DNA of 64,000 bases from the NCBI RefSeq assembly GCF_014700075.1, contig NZ_JACXBU010000009.1, positions 62,001 to 126,000 of the forward strand, read 5' to 3'. Under the pieces are notes generated by a model. That model worked only from the letters and a program-made list of their open reading frames with translations. It searched no databases and was not told the origin of the DNA. This document shows positions 16,315 through 62,285 of this stretch, piece after piece; positions within the stretch are counted from its first letter, which is position 1, and every line of letters starts with the position of its first letter. The stretch is from Pseudomonas sp. JM0905a (GTDB lineage Bacteria; Pseudomonadota; Gammaproteobacteria; Pseudomonadales; Pseudomonadaceae). Made by a program: the position numbers and the translations under genes.

Positions 16315-17709
16315 ATGTCCAGAACCACACCCAGGATTGCGTTACTTGGCGCTGGTCCGTATCGATTCCCCGGCATTGAGCTGGAATGCTACAACGATCT
16401 TGCGAGCCTGCAGGGCAATTCCGAAGCCGATGTGCTGTTGGTCGACCTGCCGGGCGAACAGGCGGGCCCGGCCTTGCGGAGCCTGCGCCTCGATCCCCGC
16501 TATCGCTTCAGTCTGATCTACTGCTGCCAGGACCAGGATCCCTGGTGCATTGCCCTGGGTGACGGCCCGCCGCCGGCCGACCCGGGTGCGATCACGCCCC
16601 TCTGGCGCCTCTGGCGCGAGCGCCTTGGCCTTTTCAATCGCGGAGCCGCCCCTGAACGCTTCGAGGAACGGGTGATGGCGTGGCTCTGGCTGCGCTCACG
16701 CGGTGAAGTCCTTGCAGTGCGTGATGCCGGCGTGCCCCAGCATTACCGCTATCCGCTGCTGGAAGTCCTCGGTAACGAAGAGACCATCAATCAATTCTCC
16801 TGGCTACAGCTGATGAGCCAGCAGGGCTGGCTGGAGGAGGGGGCACTGCAGGACCGGCTGCGCTTGTGCACCAGCTGTGGGTCGGGCCGTCTCAACTACG
16901 TGGATGTCTGCCCCGAGTGCCAGGCCCTGGACATCGGTCGCCAGCCTTCGCTGCATTGCTTCACCTGCGGGCACGTCGGCCCCCAGGAACACTTCCTCAA
17001 GGAAGGCGTGCTGCTCTGCCCGAACTGCCTGACCCGTCTTCGCCATATTGGCAGCGACTACGACCGTCCGCTGGAGAACTACCGCTGCCGCAACTGCCAG
17101 GCCTTTTTCGTCGATGCCGCGGTGGATGCGCGCTGCCTGGACTGCGGCCAGTCCCACGCGCCCGACAAGCTGCGCGTGCGCGAGATACGCCACTTCCGCC
17201 TGGCCGAGGCCGGGCGCCTGAGGTGCCGGGAAGGCTTCGGCGCCGGGGCGATGAACATCGAGCGCTTCGGCAGCCTGAACTTGCTGCCACGCCAGGCTTT
17301 CCTCGATCTGCTGAACTGGCAGCTGCAACTGACGCGACGGCACCGGGATCCGGCCTTCTCGCTACTCGGTCTGCGTTTCGTCAACCTGTTGGAAACCCTC
17401 TCCCAACTCGGCGAGATGCGCGGCCACGCGCTGGTAGACGGGCTGGTGGAGCGCCTGCAGGAAGCCGTGCGGGAAACCGATCGTTGTTGCCGGCTGAGCG
17501 AGGAGGTGCTCTGGCTGCTGATGCCGCACACCGATGCCACCGGCATGGAAGTGGTGCGCAAGCGCCTGGTCAAGGGCGCGGAGCGCCTGACCGCTGGACA
17601 GGCGACGCCCATCGAGGTGCGGTTGGCCGTCTTCACGGCTCCCGATGATCAGCAGGAACAGGAAGACGCTGCCCTGCTGCTGGCGCGTCTGGGCGGACAG
17701 TTGGGCTGA
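16315..17709 (+). CDS. Pseudo-receiver / TackOD1 zinc-ribbon / degenerate GGDEF protein
   Basis: A soluble 464-residue protein with three parts. Residues 1-85 look like a receiver fold without the phosphorylation site (DVLLVDLPGEQ at 39-49). Residues 140-280 carry six CxxC pairs (185/188, 199/202, 215/218, 235/238, 258/261, 274/277) with CGHVGPQEHF and IGSDYDRP between them, the layout I know from the TackOD1 thaumarchaeal output domain. Residues 310-455 are a GGDEF fold in which the active-site GG(D/E)EF is replaced by SEEVL (395-399), while RETD (386-389) keeps the exact five-residue spacing of the c-di-GMP inhibitory site. This suggests a c-di-GMP receptor without cyclase activity, as in PelD. 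It leads a four-gene operon with a 2-nt gap to the glycosyltransferase. The RBS is weak. Confidence 0.82.
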   Translation: MSRTTPRIALLGAGPYRFPGIELECYNDLASLQGNSEADVLLVDLPGEQAGPALRSLRLDPRYRFSLIYCCQDQDPWCIALGDGPPPADPGAITPLWRLWRERLGLFNRGAAPERFEERVMAWLWLRSRGEVLAVRDAGVPQHYRYPLLEVLGNEETINQFSWLQLMSQQGWLEEGALQDRLRLCTSCGSGRLNYVDVCPECQALDIGRQPSLHCFTCGHVGPQEHFLKEGVLLCPNCLTRLRHIGSDYDRPLENYRCRNCQAFFVDAAVDARCLDCGQSHAPDKLRVREIRHFRLAEAGRLRCREGFGAGAMNIERFGSLNLLPRQAFLDLLNWQLQLTRRHRDPAFSLLGLRFVNLLETLSQLGEMRGHALVDGLVERLQEAVRETDRCCRLSEEVLWLLMPHTDATGMEVVRKRLVKGAERLTAGQATPIEVRLAVFTAPDDQQEQEDAALLLARLGGQLG

Positions 17710-17711
17710 GC

Positions 17712-19040
17712 ATGGAAGCTTTTGTCGAGCAGTGGCTGCTGCTCCTCGGCGAGTTCGCCAGGAGCGATGGCATTCTGCAGGGTGCCTTCATGTTGCTGCC
17801 GGCCTTCCTGCTGCTGGAGCTGCCGCTCAACCTGCTGGTGCTGATCGGCGTCCTGCGCTGGTTCGTCCGCAAGCCGTTCGAGTTGCCCCAGCAGAGCACC
17901 TATCGGCCGCGGGTGTCCTGCATCATCACCTGCTACAGCGAGGGTCGGGACGTCCAGACGACCCTGCGCAGCCTGTGTGAGCAGACCTACCCCGGCTACA
18001 TCGAGATGATTCCGGTGGTGGACGGAGCGGCGGTGAACCAGCCCACCATGCAGGCCGTGCGGGACTTTCGCGTCGATCCGCAGCTCTATCCGCGACGCCT
18101 GTTGCGACCCATCGCCAAGTGGCAGCGCGGTGGCCGGGTCTCCTCCCTGAACGCGGGGCTGGCGCACTGCACCGGCGAAGTGGTGATGGCCCTGGACGGC
18201 GATACCTCCTTCGACAACGACATGGTCAGCCAGATGGTCCGTCATTTCGCCGACCCGGACGTCCCGGCCGTGGCAGGAAGCCTGCGAGTGCGCAATGCCC
18301 GGGCTTCGCTCACCACCGCCATGCAGGCGCTGGAGTATCAGTTGTCGATCCACATGGCCAAGATCGGCCTCAGCGAATGGAACCTGGTGAATAACGTATC
18401 CGGCGCGTTCGGCGCGTTTCGCCGCAGTTTCCTCGACAAGATCGGCGGCTGGGACACCCACACCGCGGAAGACCTGGACATCACCCTGCGGATCAAGAAC
18501 TACTTCGGCCGCAGGCCCCTGCGCATTCCCTTCGAGCCCGGCGCCATCGGCCATACCGACGCACCCGTGACCTTCCTGCAGTTCCTCAAGCAGCGCCTGC
18601 GCTGGGACGGTGACCTGTACTTCCTCTACATTCGCAAGCACCGGCACAGCTTCAATCCGCGCCTGCTGGGCTGGCCGAACTTCCTGATGACCCTGATCAC
18701 CGGCTTCTTCTTTCAGCTGGTACTGCCTTTCATCATCGCCGGCTACTGCCTGGCCGGGCCCCTGGTGCTGCCCTGGCCGCGCTTCCTGGCCCTGGCCGCG
18801 CTCATCTATCTGGTCTATCTGGGCATGACGCTGTTGCTCTATGTGGCCATGCTGGCCCTGGTGTCCGAGCGGCCGCGCATGGACCTGCGATTGTTCCCTG
18901 TGGTCTTCGTCTTCCCGCTGTTCATGCTGGTCATGCGCATGTGGAGCGCGGTGGCCATGCTCAACGAGGCCCTGCGTCGCGGCCATGAGGAAACCAGCAT
19001 GGCGCCCTGGTGGGTGCTGCGTAGGGCCAAGAGGTTCTGA
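17712..19040 (+). CDS. Processive family 2 glycosyltransferase (polysaccharide synthase-like)
   Basis: A 442-residue inner-membrane GT2 of the BcsA/PgaC/HasA architecture. One transmembrane segment lies at about 25-52, the cytoplasmic GT-A domain at 65-310, and three or four helices at about 320-415. Catalytic motifs of processive enzymes are all present: DGD at 162-164, the base motif TAED at 251-254 and QRLRW at 294-298. There is no PilZ domain, so c-di-GMP control would have to come through another protein, such as the degenerate GGDEF protein just upstream. It is separated by 4 nt from the TolC-like gene. The sugar donor cannot be deduced. Confidence 0.9.
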   Translation: MEAFVEQWLLLLGEFARSDGILQGAFMLLPAFLLLELPLNLLVLIGVLRWFVRKPFELPQQSTYRPRVSCIITCYSEGRDVQTTLRSLCEQTYPGYIEMIPVVDGAAVNQPTMQAVRDFRVDPQLYPRRLLRPIAKWQRGGRVSSLNAGLAHCTGEVVMALDGDTSFDNDMVSQMVRHFADPDVPAVAGSLRVRNARASLTTAMQALEYQLSIHMAKIGLSEWNLVNNVSGAFGAFRRSFLDKIGGWDTHTAEDLDITLRIKNYFGRRPLRIPFEPGAIGHTDAPVTFLQFLKQRLRWDGDLYFLYIRKHRHSFNPRLLGWPNFLMTLITGFFFQLVLPFIIAGYCLAGPLVLPWPRFLALAALIYLVYLGMTLLLYVAMLALVSERPRMDLRLFPVVFVFPLFMLVMRMWSAVAMLNEALRRGHEETSMAPWWVLRRAKRF

Positions 19041-19044
19041 GTTC

Positions 19045-21129
19045 ATGATTCGTCCATTTCTTTTCTGCGCACTGCTGCTGGCCGCCGGCATGGTCCGGGC
19101 CGACGTGCTGCCGTTGGCCCAGGTGCTGGACCGCGCCGAAGACGGGGCCGCGCTGCAGGCCAAGGCGGCCGAGCTGCGGGCGCTGGATGCACTCAAGGAA
19201 CAGCGCGAAGCCGAGGCGGGCTGGCAGTGGTTCGGCTCTGGCAGTACCGGGCACTACCACGAACTGGTGACCGAAGACCTGCGTGACGACTATTACGGGC
19301 GTGACCTGGCCCTCGGCCTGCGCCACCCGCTACTCGGCAGCCTGCGTCGGCAAGTGCAGGCCGTATCGGCGGTGGAGCTTGAGCAGCAGCGGCAGCAGGC
19401 GCAGCGCCTGTTGCGCCTGGCGGAGCAACGGCTGGCCTTACGCAGCGCCTACGCCGACTGGTGGCGTGCCGAGCAGGAAGAGCGCTGGTGCAAGGGGCTG
19501 CTGCCCGCATCCCAGACGGCTCGCGAACGCCTGGCCCGGCGTCAGCAGGGCGGCTGGCTGCTGCCTTCGCAGGCGCGGTTGCTGGACGGCCAATGGCAGG
19601 GTCTCCAGCAGCGTTGCCGGCAGAGCGCGCTCCTGGTGGACGACACCCGCGCCAGCCTGGCCGGGTTGGCGGATATGGAGATTGGTCCTGGTCAGCAGGC
19701 CGAAGCGGAATCGCTGTCGACGCAAGTGTTGCCGCTGTCCAATTGGCGTCAGGCCCTGGAGGGGCACCCGCGCCTGCAGGAGAGACAGGACGAACTGCGC
19801 CACGCCGAGCGCAATCGGCAATCGCCCTGGTACGAGAGCGTCGACTCAAGCTTCAGCGTTGCGCAGAGCTACGAGTCACGCAGCGGCGCCAGCAAGAGTG
19901 GCGACGGGCTGGTGGCCGCCCTCAGTCTGTCCGCGCCCTTCGACCTGATGAACTACGGCCGGGCCCGCAATCGCGAAGGTGAGGCGCGCCATCAAGCCGC
20001 CCTGGCGCAGCTGGAGGCCGAGCGCCAGCAATTGCTCCAGTCCCTTGGGCAGACCCTGCAGGCCCAACGCCAGGCAGCGCTGGACCTGGATCGAGAGCGC
20101 GAGCAGTTGGCCGTTGCAGACCAGGCCCTGCGGGAGCAGCGGCTGCGCGCCGAGCGCTCGGTTTCCGAGAGCCCGGCCGAGGAACTGGCTGTGGAACTTG
20201 AACGCTACAACAGCGGATTGCGCCTGATTGCCGCCTGGCACGCTGCCTGGCTGCGTGAAGCGGCCCTGCGTCTGTTCGTCGACGATGACCAGGCCCTGGC
20301 TGGCCTGCTGGGGCCGCAACGTCTCGACTGGACGGCCCCGGGTGTGGTTGGGGCGGCGTCGAAGGGCGTCGGCTCGACGGGCTGGAGCCAGGGTGTCTAC
20401 CTGTGGAAAAGCGGAGCATTGCTGAATCCCGCGACTCGTCACGCGGAACTGCGCGAACTGCGCCGCGCCGGCATGACGCGGTTGTACCTGGGGCTCGATG
20501 GTGGGCAGGTGGCCGACATCCCGGCCCTGCGCAAGCAACTGCAGGACACCCTTGATGACGCCCACGCTCAAGGCGTGCAGGTGGCCCTGCTGCTGGGGGA
20601 TCCCGCTTGGCTGGAGCCCGGTGGGCGCCAGGGTTTGCTGGATCTGCTCGGTGGGCTCAAGGGGCTGCCGTTCGATGCCCTGCACCTGGATCTTGAGGTG
20701 GAGCAACTCGGCTGGCCGGTGCCCGACCGCCGCTTGCGGGACTGGCTGGACACCCTGGGCGCCGTGTCCGGGGTCGTGTCCTGGCCGCTGGAGCTGTCCA
20801 GCCATCCCCGCTGGTTCGCCGAGCCAGTCGCCGGTGCGACTTGCGTGCCCTGTGCCCTGCCGAAGCGCGGCGTGCGGCAGGTCGACCTGATGATCTACAC
20901 CCGCAATCCCGCTCGCAGCGCCGAACTGGCGGAATCCATCGCCCGCCGCTGGCCGGCGCTGCGCTTCCGTCTGGCCCAGAGTGTCGAGCCCCAGCTACCG
21001 ACTGAGGAATCCTGGGCCGGGGCCTCGCGCACGCAGTTGCGGGAACAGCTCGAGCGTTGGCGCACGCGCCTGCAGCCCGCCGGTATCACCGGCGTCGACT
21101 GGCAGGATTGGACCCATTTTCCCCGTTGA
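19045..21129 (+). CDS. TolC-like outer-membrane factor fused to a C-terminal TIM-barrel/glycosidase-like domain
   Basis: A 694-residue exported protein (signal peptide 1-19, cleaved after VRA). Residues 20-420 look like one outer-membrane efflux protein: long helices with heptads (about 100-210 and 310-410) separated by a strand-rich stretch (VAALSLSAPFDLMNYGRARN, 289-308). After about residue 445 it changes to alternating strands and helices: VYLWKSGALL, TRLYLGLDGG, VQVALLLGD, DALHLDLEVEQ, VDLMIYTRN. The segment L546-E553 (HLDLEVE) resembles the catalytic strand of barrel glycoside hydrolases (HLDIEP-like). The frame is continuous, so this is one polypeptide. No BcsC/PgaA-like TPR is seen. 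Start 19045 follows the GT2 stop by 4 nt. Confidence 0.8.
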   Translation: MIRPFLFCALLLAAGMVRADVLPLAQVLDRAEDGAALQAKAAELRALDALKEQREAEAGWQWFGSGSTGHYHELVTEDLRDDYYGRDLALGLRHPLLGSLRRQVQAVSAVELEQQRQQAQRLLRLAEQRLALRSAYADWWRAEQEERWCKGLLPASQTARERLARRQQGGWLLPSQARLLDGQWQGLQQRCRQSALLVDDTRASLAGLADMEIGPGQQAEAESLSTQVLPLSNWRQALEGHPRLQERQDELRHAERNRQSPWYESVDSSFSVAQSYESRSGASKSGDGLVAALSLSAPFDLMNYGRARNREGEARHQAALAQLEAERQQLLQSLGQTLQAQRQAALDLDREREQLAVADQALREQRLRAERSVSESPAEELAVELERYNSGLRLIAAWHAAWLREAALRLFVDDDQALAGLLGPQRLDWTAPGVVGAASKGVGSTGWSQGVYLWKSGALLNPATRHAELRELRRAGMTRLYLGLDGGQVADIPALRKQLQDTLDDAHAQGVQVALLLGDPAWLEPGGRQGLLDLLGGLKGLPFDALHLDLEVEQLGWPVPDRRLRDWLDTLGAVSGVVSWPLELSSHPRWFAEPVAGATCVPCALPKRGVRQVDLMIYTRNPARSAELAESIARRWPALRFRLAQSVEPQLPTEESWAGASRTQLREQLERWRTRLQPAGITGVDWQDWTHFPR

Positions 21130-21137
21130 GTCAGGCC

Positions 21138-22178
21138 ATGAAGATTCGATTCTCCAGCCCCAAGGAACAGCAGCCCACTCAGGAGCAGGGGCTCAAGGTG
21201 CTCTACGCGCCCGGCAAGCGTCTGGCCTTCAAGCTGCGCTGGTACCTGATTCTGCTCGCGGTCACCAGTCCGCTGTTGTTCCTGGTCGGGCGCGAGTTCC
21301 TCGGCTTCTGGCTGATCGAGGCGCCGGTGCAGTTGCACCTGCCGTCCACCGAGCTGCGGGCGCGGGAGGCTGGACAGGTGGAACGCGTGCTGGTCAGGCC
21401 CGGCGACCGGGTGGAGGCCGGCCAGTTGCTGGTGAAGATGGATAACCCCGAGTGGCGTGCTCGCCTTGCCCTGCTCGGTGACCCCATCGCCCAGGCGCGG
21501 CGACCTGCCGGGAATCGACCCTTGCCGGAGCAGGAGCGCCAGGCCCTGGAACGCCTGCTGGCCAGCGCGGAGAGCCGCCTGGGACGCCTGCGCGGGCTGC
21601 TCGCCGCCGGTGCCGCGACCCGGGGTGAGGTGCAGCTGGCCCAGGACGAGCGGGACAGGCGCCAGCGTGACCTGGTGCAATTCGAGCGGCGAGAGTCGCT
21701 ACCGGTGGACGACACTCTGGAGCGTCAACGCCGACTGGAAAGCGACTGGCTGCAAGCACGTTTACATGGGCTGGAGCTGAAGGCCGGCGAGTCCGGAGTG
21801 ATCAGCGAGGTGCTGGTGGATGAGGGCGAAAACGTCGGCCCCGGGACGCCGCTGATGCGCCTGCAGCGTCTGGGCGACGCCGAACTGTGGGTCTATCTCG
21901 ACCCGCGGGATGCTGCCTATGCCTCTCCGGGCCAGCCCTTCCGGCTGCGCCTGCCGGATGGCACCTGGCTGCCTGCCGAGGTGGTGCGCATGGTGGAGGA
22001 CGCCGCTCCTGTGCCGGTCGAGCTGCGCGAGGCATTCAGCGCCCCGAGCCGCAACCTGCGCTTGCTGGCGCGGGTAAAAGGGGAGTGGCCGGCGTTCTGG
22101 CGTGTGGACCGCCTGGGGCTGAAGGCGCGCTTTCCCCATCGCTGGCGCTGGCTCGACAGCTGGGCCAGCGATAGCTGA
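21138..22178 (+). CDS. HlyD-type periplasmic adaptor (membrane fusion protein)
   Basis: A 346-residue inner-membrane adaptor. A cytoplasmic tail of about 34 residues is followed by a transmembrane helix (35-57). Two halves of a lipoyl/barrel-sandwich domain lie around residues 65-103 (REAGQVERVLVRPGDRVEAG) and 211-243 (GESGVISEVLVDEGENVG), with a helical hairpin between them (about 128-205) and a beta-barrel domain after (WVYLDPRDAAYASPGQPF). This is the family that links TolC-like channels to inner-membrane partners. No ABC or RND transporter gene is near; the partner is more likely the GT2 synthase. It starts 8 nt after the TolC-like stop and ends the operon. Confidence 0.85.
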   Translation: MKIRFSSPKEQQPTQEQGLKVLYAPGKRLAFKLRWYLILLAVTSPLLFLVGREFLGFWLIEAPVQLHLPSTELRAREAGQVERVLVRPGDRVEAGQLLVKMDNPEWRARLALLGDPIAQARRPAGNRPLPEQERQALERLLASAESRLGRLRGLLAAGAATRGEVQLAQDERDRRQRDLVQFERRESLPVDDTLERQRRLESDWLQARLHGLELKAGESGVISEVLVDEGENVGPGTPLMRLQRLGDAELWVYLDPRDAAYASPGQPFRLRLPDGTWLPAEVVRMVEDAAPVPVELREAFSAPSRNLRLLARVKGEWPAFWRVDRLGLKARFPHRWRWLDSWASDS

Positions 22179-61055: not shown

Positions 61056-62285
61056 TTAGAAGAGGACGCGGCTGCGGATGGTGCCGTTGACGTGCTGGAG
61101 TTTTTCCAGCGCGAGGTCCGAGTACTCGGCATCCACGTCGATCACCACGTAGCCGACCTTGTCGTCGGTCTGCAGGTACTGGCCGGAGATGTTGATGCCG
61201 TTGTCGGCGAACACCTTGTTGATCTCGCTCATCACGCCCGGCACGTTCTGGTGGATGTGCAGCAGACGGTGCTTGCCCGGGTGGGACGGCAGGGCCACTT
61301 CCGGGAAGTTCACGGAGGACACCGAAGTACCGTTGTCGCTGTACTTGACCAGCTTCTCGGCCACTTCCAGGCCGATGTTGGCCTGGGCTTCGGCGGTGGA
61401 ACCACCGATGTGCGGGGTCAGGATCACGCGGTCCAGGCCACGCAGCGGGCTCTCGAACTCCTCGTCGTTGGACTTGGGCTCGACCGGGAACACATCGATG
61501 GCGGCGCCGATCAGGTGCTCGTCCTTGATGGCGGCGGCCAGGTGATCCAGCTCGACCACGGTGCCGCGGGCGGCGTTGATCAGGATGCCGCCCTTCTTGA
61601 TGGCGCGGATTTCCTTCTCGCCGATCATCCACTGGGTGGACGGCAGCTCGGGTACGTGCAGGGACACGATGTCGGACATGCCGAGCAGCTCGTGCAGGTT
61701 GCCCACCTGGGTGGCGTTGCCCAGCGGCAGCTTGGTCACGGTGTCATAGAAGAACACCTGCATGCCCAGGGCCTCGGCCAGCACGGAGAGCTGGGTGCCG
61801 ATGGAGCCGTAGCCGACGATGCCGAGCTTCTTGCCGCGGATTTCGAAGGAGTTGGCTGCGGATTTGATCCAGCCGCCGCGGTGGCAGGAGGCGTTCTTCT
61901 CCGGAATGCCGCGCAGCAGGAGGATGGCCTCGGCCAGCACCAGTTCGGCTACCGAACGGGTGTTGGAATAGGGGGCGTTGAAGACCGCGATACCGCGCTC
62001 ACGGGCGGCATTGAGGTTGACCTGGTTGGTGCCGATGCAGAAGCAGCCGACGGCGATGAGTTTCTTGGCGCAGTCGAACACCTCTTCGGTGAGCTGGGTG
62101 CGCGAGCGAATGCCGATGAAGTGGACGTCGGCGATCTTCTCTTTCAGTTCGTCACCCGAGAGGGCGCCCTTGAGGTACTCGATGTTGGTGTAACCGGCGG
62201 CCTTCAGGGTGTCCACGGCATTCTGGTGAACGCCTTCGAGGAGAAGGAACTTGATCTTGCTCTTTTCGAGAGAGGTCTTGCTCAT
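61056..62285 (-). CDS. serA: D-3-phosphoglycerate dehydrogenase SerA
   Basis: SerA commits 3-phosphoglycerate to serine synthesis. The 409-residue enzyme is of the E. coli type, with a C-terminal ACT domain for serine feedback. Visible are the Rossmann motif VGYGSIGTQ, NAARGTVVEL with the catalytic Arg region, HIGGSTAEAQANIG with the catalytic His, and the ACT segment from about residue 335 (NVPGVMSEINKVF). E. coli-type SerA can also reduce 2-oxoglutarate to D-2-hydroxyglutarate. The adjacent divergent gene encodes the enzyme that oxidises it back. Confidence 0.97.
   Translation of the reverse strand: MSKTSLEKSKIKFLLLEGVHQNAVDTLKAAGYTNIEYLKGALSGDELKEKIADVHFIGIRSRTQLTEEVFDCAKKLIAVGCFCIGTNQVNLNAARERGIAVFNAPYSNTRSVAELVLAEAILLLRGIPEKNASCHRGGWIKSAANSFEIRGKKLGIVGYGSIGTQLSVLAEALGMQVFFYDTVTKLPLGNATQVGNLHELLGMSDIVSLHVPELPSTQWMIGEKEIRAIKKGGILINAARGTVVELDHLAAAIKDEHLIGAAIDVFPVEPKSNDEEFESPLRGLDRVILTPHIGGSTAEAQANIGLEVAEKLVKYSDNGTSVSSVNFPEVALPSHPGKHRLLHIHQNVPGVMSEINKVFADNGINISGQYLQTDDKVGYVVIDVDAEYSDLALEKLQHVNGTIRSRVLF

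Follow-up and report, generated by a model that had tools for sequence, protein, structure and literature searches.

A TolC-type channel gene with a fused glycosidase-like barrel in a putative c-di-GMP-controlled exopolysaccharide operon of Pseudomonas

A single gene of the soil bacterium Pseudomonas sp. JM0905a encodes a protein whose N-terminal part is predicted to fold as a TolC-type outer-membrane channel and whose C-terminal part is predicted to fold as a (beta/alpha)8 barrel resembling glycosidases. The gene lies in the window, a stretch of 64,000 nucleotides (positions 62,001 to 126,000 of contig NZ_JACXBU010000009.1), and is the third of a four-gene operon with the order TackOD1+GGDEF protein, GT2, TolC-barrel, HlyD, in which the genes are separated by gaps of 2, 4, and 8 bases (Table 1). 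We consider it likely, though by no means certain, that this locus is a four-gene, c-di-GMP-controlled system of exopolysaccharide synthesis and secretion, in which the channel carries its own trimming enzyme. The set looks built for making and exporting a sugar polymer, and the channel therefore probably trims that polymer. The original prediction, made from the sequence alone, had guessed at polysaccharide export, and the surrounding GT2, HlyD, and TackOD1 genes bear it out.

Table 1. Positions of the operon genes and of the parts of the TolC-barrel protein in the window
Feature	Position	Strand	Extent and basis
TackOD1 zinc-ribbon + degenerate GGDEF protein	16315..17709	+	464 aa; Pfam
GT2 polysaccharide synthase-like protein	17712..19040	+	442 aa; Pfam PF13641, 74.4 bits
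Signal peptide	19045..19104	+	residues 1 to ~20; from sequence; model pLDDT low
TolC-type outer-membrane channel domain (predicted)	19105..20319	+	residues 21-425; PF02321, model, Foldseek
Linker	20320..20382	+	residues ~426-446; pLDDT <50 at 434-445
(beta/alpha)8 glycosidase-like domain (predicted)	20383..21129	+	residues 447-694; AF2, VIA-align 2
D549-L550-E551 codons	20689..20697	+	putative catalytic DxE after strand 4; invariant 45/45
Y618 codon	20896..20898	+	MxY, strand 6 end, GH18-like position
HlyD-type periplasmic adaptor	21138..22178	+	346 aa; PF13437; 8 bases past TolC-barrel stop

The TolC-barrel protein

The open reading frame at 19045-21129 on the forward strand is translated into 694 residues without a stop, in agreement with the original prediction of a continuous frame, and the gene is present in a single copy in its genome. 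The fusion recurs in 36 of the 39 Pseudomonadaceae genomes that contain the GT2 gene, as well as in Ralstonia, a Comamonadaceae MAG, and an Aeromonas plasmid; we therefore conclude that it is not an assembly error. The first ~420 residues had been taken for an outer-membrane efflux protein, and residues 21-425 are indeed TolC-like by profile, model, and structural search. The Pfam family OEP (PF02321) matches this half in two stretches with 32.4 bits (cut-off 22). In the full-length AlphaFold model (30 sequences; pLDDT 86, pTM 0.58), the channel part has, as expected of an outer membrane factor, four transmembrane strands per chain (61-74, 80-95, 267-279, and 286-296) and long periplasmic helices, two of ~70 residues each (97-168 and 301-371), and a Foldseek search with it retrieved TolC (1ek9) with an E-value of 3.5e-14, with OprM and CusC ranking lower. 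The linker that follows varies in length and sequence among relatives and is gap-rich in the alignment. A PDB sequence search with the whole protein gave a best E-value of 0.81, for an unrelated entry, and an FGE-sulfatase match on the window protein (15.1 bits versus a cut-off of 23.3) was discarded.

The tail, residues 440-694, had been proposed to form a TIM barrel, with structure prediction named as the check. Modeled alone (residues 444-694, 45 sequences, AF2), it is predicted with a pLDDT of 96 and a pTM of 0.92 to form a complete (beta/alpha)8 barrel of eight strands alternating with helices, spanning residues 447-694. The single-chain model is thus a TIM barrel, as expected, while its beginning moves from residue 440 to near 447, past the linker. 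The two motifs singled out beforehand, HLDLEVE (residues 547-553) and VDLMIYTRN (613-621), are found where they had been placed.

In a structural comparison using VIA-align 2, the top match of the modeled barrel was Cwp19 (Z 18.8, rmsd 3.9, 238 residues). The GH18 chitinase 6k7z scored Z 17.9 (rmsd 3.6 over 223 residues), the hydrolase domains of BpsB and PgaB scored 16.8 and 16.7, respectively, and many GH5 and GH1 enzymes also matched. Entries differing by 1 Z or less were treated as ties, and each of the 999 chains compared reached a Z of at least 8, TIM barrels matching each other broadly; the comparison therefore identifies a fold, not a family. No model of Pfam or NCBIfam covers the barrel. 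Scattered Pfam matches only were obtained with 43 barrels (best E 0.006), and a PDB search with the barrel profile gave a best E-value of 1.1. For GH18 (PF00704), none of the 43 barrel members matched, and hhalign returned a probability of 1.8 (E 0.027); for GH153 (PF14883), hhalign against six PgaB domains returned a probability of 1.0 (E 0.053); for GHL10 (PF02638), 0 of 43 members matched, and hhalign against one member returned a probability of 7.5 (E 0.0047). With respect to GH18, the predicted barrel has the (beta/alpha)8 fold and lacks both the sequence match and the DxxDxDxE motif. Since it reaches no known GH family by sequence, an enzymatic activity is proposed here from the fold and from conservation.

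An alignment of 45 barrel sequences contains 25 invariant columns, among them D549, E551, H587, R589, M616, Y618, Q645, E648, Q687, and W689. Seventeen of the 25 are located within -1 to +4 residues of the C-terminal ends of strands, a zone that makes up 48 of the 251 residues (p about 1.5e-8), and two are at the N-terminal ends. D549 and E551 are at the C-terminal end of strand 4 (domain strand 102-105, followed by D106 and E108). The original prediction had named D549, E551, and E553 as putative acidic residues of an active site and their conservation in homologues as a further check. When this check was run, D549 and E551 stood, being invariant in all 45 sequences, and E553 fell, since it is replaced by G in L082 and by N in L083 (in which the frame is broken, so that its barrel alone entered the analysis). 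Barrel dN/dS was 0.11-0.22 in seven of the nine pairs compared and 0.35 in the distant pair of L060 and the window; L062 and L064 are nearly identical and differ at too few sites for an estimate.

The strand-4 motif of GH18 enzymes is DxxDxDxE. In the barrel family, its final DxE alone is invariant; the position of the second D is occupied by H547 in the window barrel (N in L083), and the position of the first D is variable. In the non-significant hhalign match between the barrel and GH18, DxE falls on DxE and MxY on MxY, and DxE is also present in a relative from Methylocystis (see below). Alternatively, an arrangement of the GH-A type may apply, with the acid/base after strand 4 and E648, which is invariant in 45 of 45 sequences, as the nucleophile after strand 7. 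Judging by the alignments, we prefer DxE and MxY as the candidate catalytic site, because these positions recur in the Methylocystis relative, although the alignment with that relative is weak near strand 7.

The operon and its distribution

The product of the first gene scores 219 bits with the TackOD1 model (cut-off 32) and 33.2 bits with the GGDEF model. An intact GGDEF signature is found in 0 of 34 rows of its alignment (the window protein has LSEEV), while RxxD (R386-D389), which sits as it does in active cyclases, is retained in 34 of 34. Loss of the signature with retention of RxxD leads us to infer a receptor rather than a cyclase, and a role as a c-di-GMP-responsive regulator is probable on sequence grounds. 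The PelD_GGDEF model (PF16963) gave 13.5 bits versus a cut-off of 27. In the open-access literature, TackOD1 was found in one paper only, the available part of which calls its function obscure (PMC5847659).

QRLRW is present in 47 of 47 rows of the GT2 alignment, and a processive QxxRW GT2 adjoining a dedicated export pore, as seen in this operon, is the arrangement by which synthase-dependent exopolysaccharide systems are recognized. The nearest characterized synthases are PgaC (107-116 bits), IcaA (104), and NodC (80), with BcsA at 33 bits; in the GT2 tree, BcsA and a Sinorhizobium meliloti GT split from the others with support of 96/97. The model for PNAG synthases PgaC/IcaA (TIGR03937) gave 130.7 bits versus a cut-off of 422.3. 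PgaC, IcaA, and NodC all polymerize GlcNAc, and on this basis an amino-sugar product is our guess. The product of the fourth gene matches PF13437 with 50.6 bits (cut-off 22.2). The same gene order is shared by relatives in Pseudomonas, Stutzerimonas, Ralstonia, the Comamonadaceae MAG, and the Aeromonas plasmid.

Among 298 Pseudomonadaceae genomes, the barrel is present in 49 and the GT2 in 39. Fifty-one genomes were initially listed as barrel-positive; G026 and G215, which match TolC stretches only and have internal stops, were excluded. All 39 GT2-positive genomes have the barrel, fused to TolC in 36 cases (including G025, where both pieces, L071 and L072, stop at contig ends) and without the TolC part in three. 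The apparently stand-alone barrel of L081 is due to a contig end and was rejected as such. Because the genomes are related, the pairing of GT2 and barrel does not amount to 39 independent events. In the remaining 10 of the 49 barrel genomes there is no GT2, which indicates that the barrel can be of use in the absence of this synthase: G031 and G159 have a TolC-barrel, G236 has a barrel alone, and G046, G110, G115, G117, G125, G191, and G210 have the barrel in the form of the possibly mobile stretch described below.

Rearranged, unfused, and barrel-less relatives

The TolC part has been lost in genomes G123, G237, and G279 (L057-L059). When the DNA of these loci is compared with that of L047, the flanks align around a clean gap of ~1.3 kb that removes TolC; between GT2 and HlyD, a signal peptide joined in frame to the barrel remains; dN/dS of this stand-alone barrel is 0.11. 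The barrel tree, in which L060 is on a long branch with unresolved placement, requires a minimum of three switches between the fused and stand-alone forms, and the stand-alone rows are nested among the fused ones. The in-frame deletion and the nesting together argue that, in this family, the fusion came first and that the channel was repeatedly lost while the enzyme stayed. In L060 (7185-7940), a barrel with its own signal peptide occupies the usual operon site alone, flanked by a tetR-like gene and a hydrolase gene.

A polysaccharide deacetylase gene lies directly downstream of the barrel in eight loci (L069, L070, L061-L064, L074, and L075). Its product has a hydrophobic N-terminal stretch, and the two members scanned match Polysacc_deac_1 with 42.6 and 44.5 bits (cut-off 23.1). 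At L064:5332-8981, and in like stretches in L061, L062, L063, L074, and L075, a GT2 remnant, a stand-alone barrel, and the deacetylase follow each other. These six loci, from six of the seven genomes with this form (G210 was left out), are in three genera and have differing surroundings, and the stretch of ~3.0-3.65 kb is nevertheless 97.7-99.3% identical between them, with the ends GGCCAAAA and TTTTGGCC. These ends suggest that the stretch is a mobile element. L069 and L070 contain TolC-barrel genes without GT2 and HlyD; between them, dN/dS is 0.32 for the TolC halves (L069:7974-9236 and L070:7792-9057), 0.21 for the barrel halves, and 0.13 for the deacetylases, values that may point to decay of the channel part with retention of the enzymes.

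Other genes and domains join the family in places. A sugar-nucleotide epimerase is encoded near HlyD in L057, L058, L045, and L053, and is cut off in L026 and L027. In L082 (5906-8440), an extra N-terminal AMIN domain (49.4 bits versus 20.5), TolC, and barrel form a single frame of 845 residues. L056, the 29-kb mobilizable plasmid pKAM345_3 of Aeromonas caviae, carries TackOD1, GT2, TolC-barrel, and HlyD across the start of its record; its GT2, TolC-barrel, and HlyD are about 60-79% identical to those of the window, a fragment resembling the hydrolase downstream of the window operon is also present, and the operon was probably transferred from a Stutzerimonas-like source.

On a Methylocystis plasmid (L116), genes for TackOD1 (132.7 bits), a GT2, an HlyD-like protein, a separate barrel, and a separate TolC (160.1 bits) stand in a row, and hhalign of the barrel family against the Methylocystis barrel gives a probability of 91.9 (E 6.9e-7). 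As this is one locus type, from two records of one species, its support is suggestive. Neither the barrel nor the family TolC was detected at TackOD1-GT2-HlyD loci of Plesiomonas, Photobacterium, Alisedimentitalea, G856, and G868, whose GT2s belong to the same subfamily and are 48-54% identical where measured, nor at those of Phyllobacterium, Aminobacter, Palleronia, and Roseibium, whose GT2s are more distant. A general TolC may serve the barrel-less loci, which indicate that the barrel is an accessory of a more widespread machine and is in places dispensable for export. L118 (S. meliloti), considered as a related locus, proved to be a different GT locus, as did L117 and L119. TackOD1-type proteins are also encoded on haloarchaeal plasmids (L136:5854-6837 and L137:5968-6930), with no GT2 nearby, and a Sinorhizobium medicae plasmid (L143:5980-8288) has a GT2 that is 36% identical to that of Methylocystis, with an HlyD-like gene directly after it.

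Proposed function and comparison with known systems

In the mechanism that we propose, the TackOD1/degenerate GGDEF protein would sense c-di-GMP through RxxD and switch on the GT2, which would synthesize and extrude a polymer whose building block is most likely an N-acetylated amino sugar. HlyD would bridge the inner and outer membranes, and a TolC-type trimer would form the exit. TolC termini are periplasmic, which would place the barrel in the periplasm near the channel, three to a trimer. Each would be held on a flexible linker at the C-terminal end of its chain, so that the mouth of the channel would be surrounded by three enzymes that cut or trim the polymer before or during export, a task for which PgaB, PelA, or BcsZ serve as separate proteins elsewhere. 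Such cutting would either determine the length of the chain or remove polymer that has stalled. With the enzyme attached to the exit, cutting would be linked to export, and chains under synthesis would be spared. More tentatively, TackOD1-GT2-HlyD loci could represent an undescribed class of c-di-GMP-controlled exopolysaccharide systems of Alpha-, Beta-, and Gammaproteobacteria, which would secrete an amino-sugar polymer through TolC-type channels, with the Pseudomonas trimer as a self-trimming version whose three heads, from a new GH family, set chain length.

The barrel could instead act on peptidoglycan, opening the wall or anchoring to it for channel assembly, as the lytic enzymes of other trans-envelope machines do. 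We retain this explanation because the best fold match, Cwp19, is to our understanding a peptidoglycan lytic enzyme, and because AMIN, a wall-binding type of domain, has been added in one relative, L082; the persistence of the barrel in the 10 genomes, of 49, that lack the synthase would also fit. We nevertheless regard it as unlikely. The barrel accompanies the synthase in 39 of 39 genomes and has a deacetylase as a partner, its stay beside GT2 and HlyD after the loss of TolC is not expected of a factor for channel assembly, and, to our knowledge, most TolC channels work in the absence of a domain of this kind.

The presence of concanavalin B and xylanase inhibitors, which we take to be non-enzymatic relatives of GH18, among 50 rows of the fold list raises the question of whether the barrel has no catalytic function and, like a lectin, binds the polymer so as to guide it into the channel. 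Dead GH18 relatives, however, typically lose their catalytic residues, whereas D549 and E551 are kept in all 45 barrels and the invariant columns cluster on the catalytic face, which makes a guide quite improbable. It is more doubtful still that the barrel mainly attacks foreign polymers or other glycans, its position in the operon being a loading device. The orphan barrel-deacetylase stretch in varied surroundings at six loci in three genera, and the barrel retained alone at the operon site of L060, would be in keeping with such a role, but the window barrel is tethered within the periplasm, and no synthase of the 39 is without one. Finally, the view that the protein is an ordinary outer-membrane component of efflux whose C-terminal extension is of no consequence is scarcely tenable: OEP and HlyD families are common to drug efflux systems, but the operon contains no RND, ABC, or MFS pump, a synthase adjoins the gene, and in no fewer than three lineages the extension has outlasted the channel.

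With trimming of the exported polymer as the favored function, the locus can be set beside known exopolysaccharide systems. It resembles PgaABCD, which makes PNAG, in a GT2 from the sequence neighborhood of PgaC, in a periplasmic barrel with the same predicted fold as that of PgaB (VIA-align Z 16.7-16.8), in the deacetylase partner that some relatives of the window barrel have, and, likely, in the link to c-di-GMP. It differs in that the PgaA pore is a beta-barrel with TPR while the window pore is of the TolC type, in that the barrel of PgaB, a C-terminal GH153 domain that hydrolyzes partly deacetylated beta-1,6-GlcNAc, is fused to a deacetylase, while that of the window is fused to a pore and is without a significant PF14883 profile match, and in having an HlyD adaptor and a TackOD1 regulator.

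In Pel systems, PelA joins hydrolase and deacetylase activities in one chain, and PelD has a degenerate GGDEF domain with RxxD kept. The window regulator is degenerate in the same way, though below the cut-off of the PelD_GGDEF model, and the theme of hydrolase with deacetylase is shared, with an epimerase encoded beside some relatives of the window barrel; Pel uses PelF, however, whereas the window locus has a GT2 and TolC/HlyD export.

BcsZ is a GH8 enzyme and BcsC a TPR/16-strand pore, in contrast to the unclassified (beta/alpha)8 barrel predicted on the TolC channel of the window. A fusion of the two, BcsZC, is nevertheless described for cellulose operons of Zymomonas in the available part of a paper (PMC7112194), and is likewise a periplasmic hydrolase joined to an outer-membrane pore in a synthase-dependent system. 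The original prediction had called a hydrolase built into the outer-membrane component a new solution. In view of BcsZC, the window protein is better seen as a variant of the hydrolase-pore fusion; no paper on a TolC-hydrolase fusion, or on the window locus, was found in the open-access literature.

What an exopolysaccharide operon gains from encoding a hydrolase of its own product is still an open question; the same available text notes that PgaB joins hydrolase and deacetylase in one chain, and calls the biological role of its hydrolase activity unknown (PMC7112194). In the window, hydrolase-like domain and exit channel are joined in one chain, and the relatives offer natural controls in which the putative enzyme is fused, unfused, alone after channel loss, or absent. 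The locus also assigns TackOD1 a probable role in the company of polysaccharide synthases, and it draws attention to a barrel family that is not yet catalogued and to an uncharacterized biofilm polymer.

Two further GT2 systems share parts of the plan. BgsBA, which makes the rhizobial mixed-linkage glucan, likewise combines a GT2 with an HlyD-like protein and is activated by c-di-GMP, which binds the synthase; the available part of the source mentions no TolC, barrel, or TackOD1 (PMC9495663). NfrA/NfrB/YbcH of E. coli is, according to the text available, also a GT2 exopolysaccharide system controlled by c-di-GMP, with a predicted ManNAc polymer, and differs from the window locus in having an MshEN receptor on the synthase and a TPR pore, NfrA (PMC8669469).
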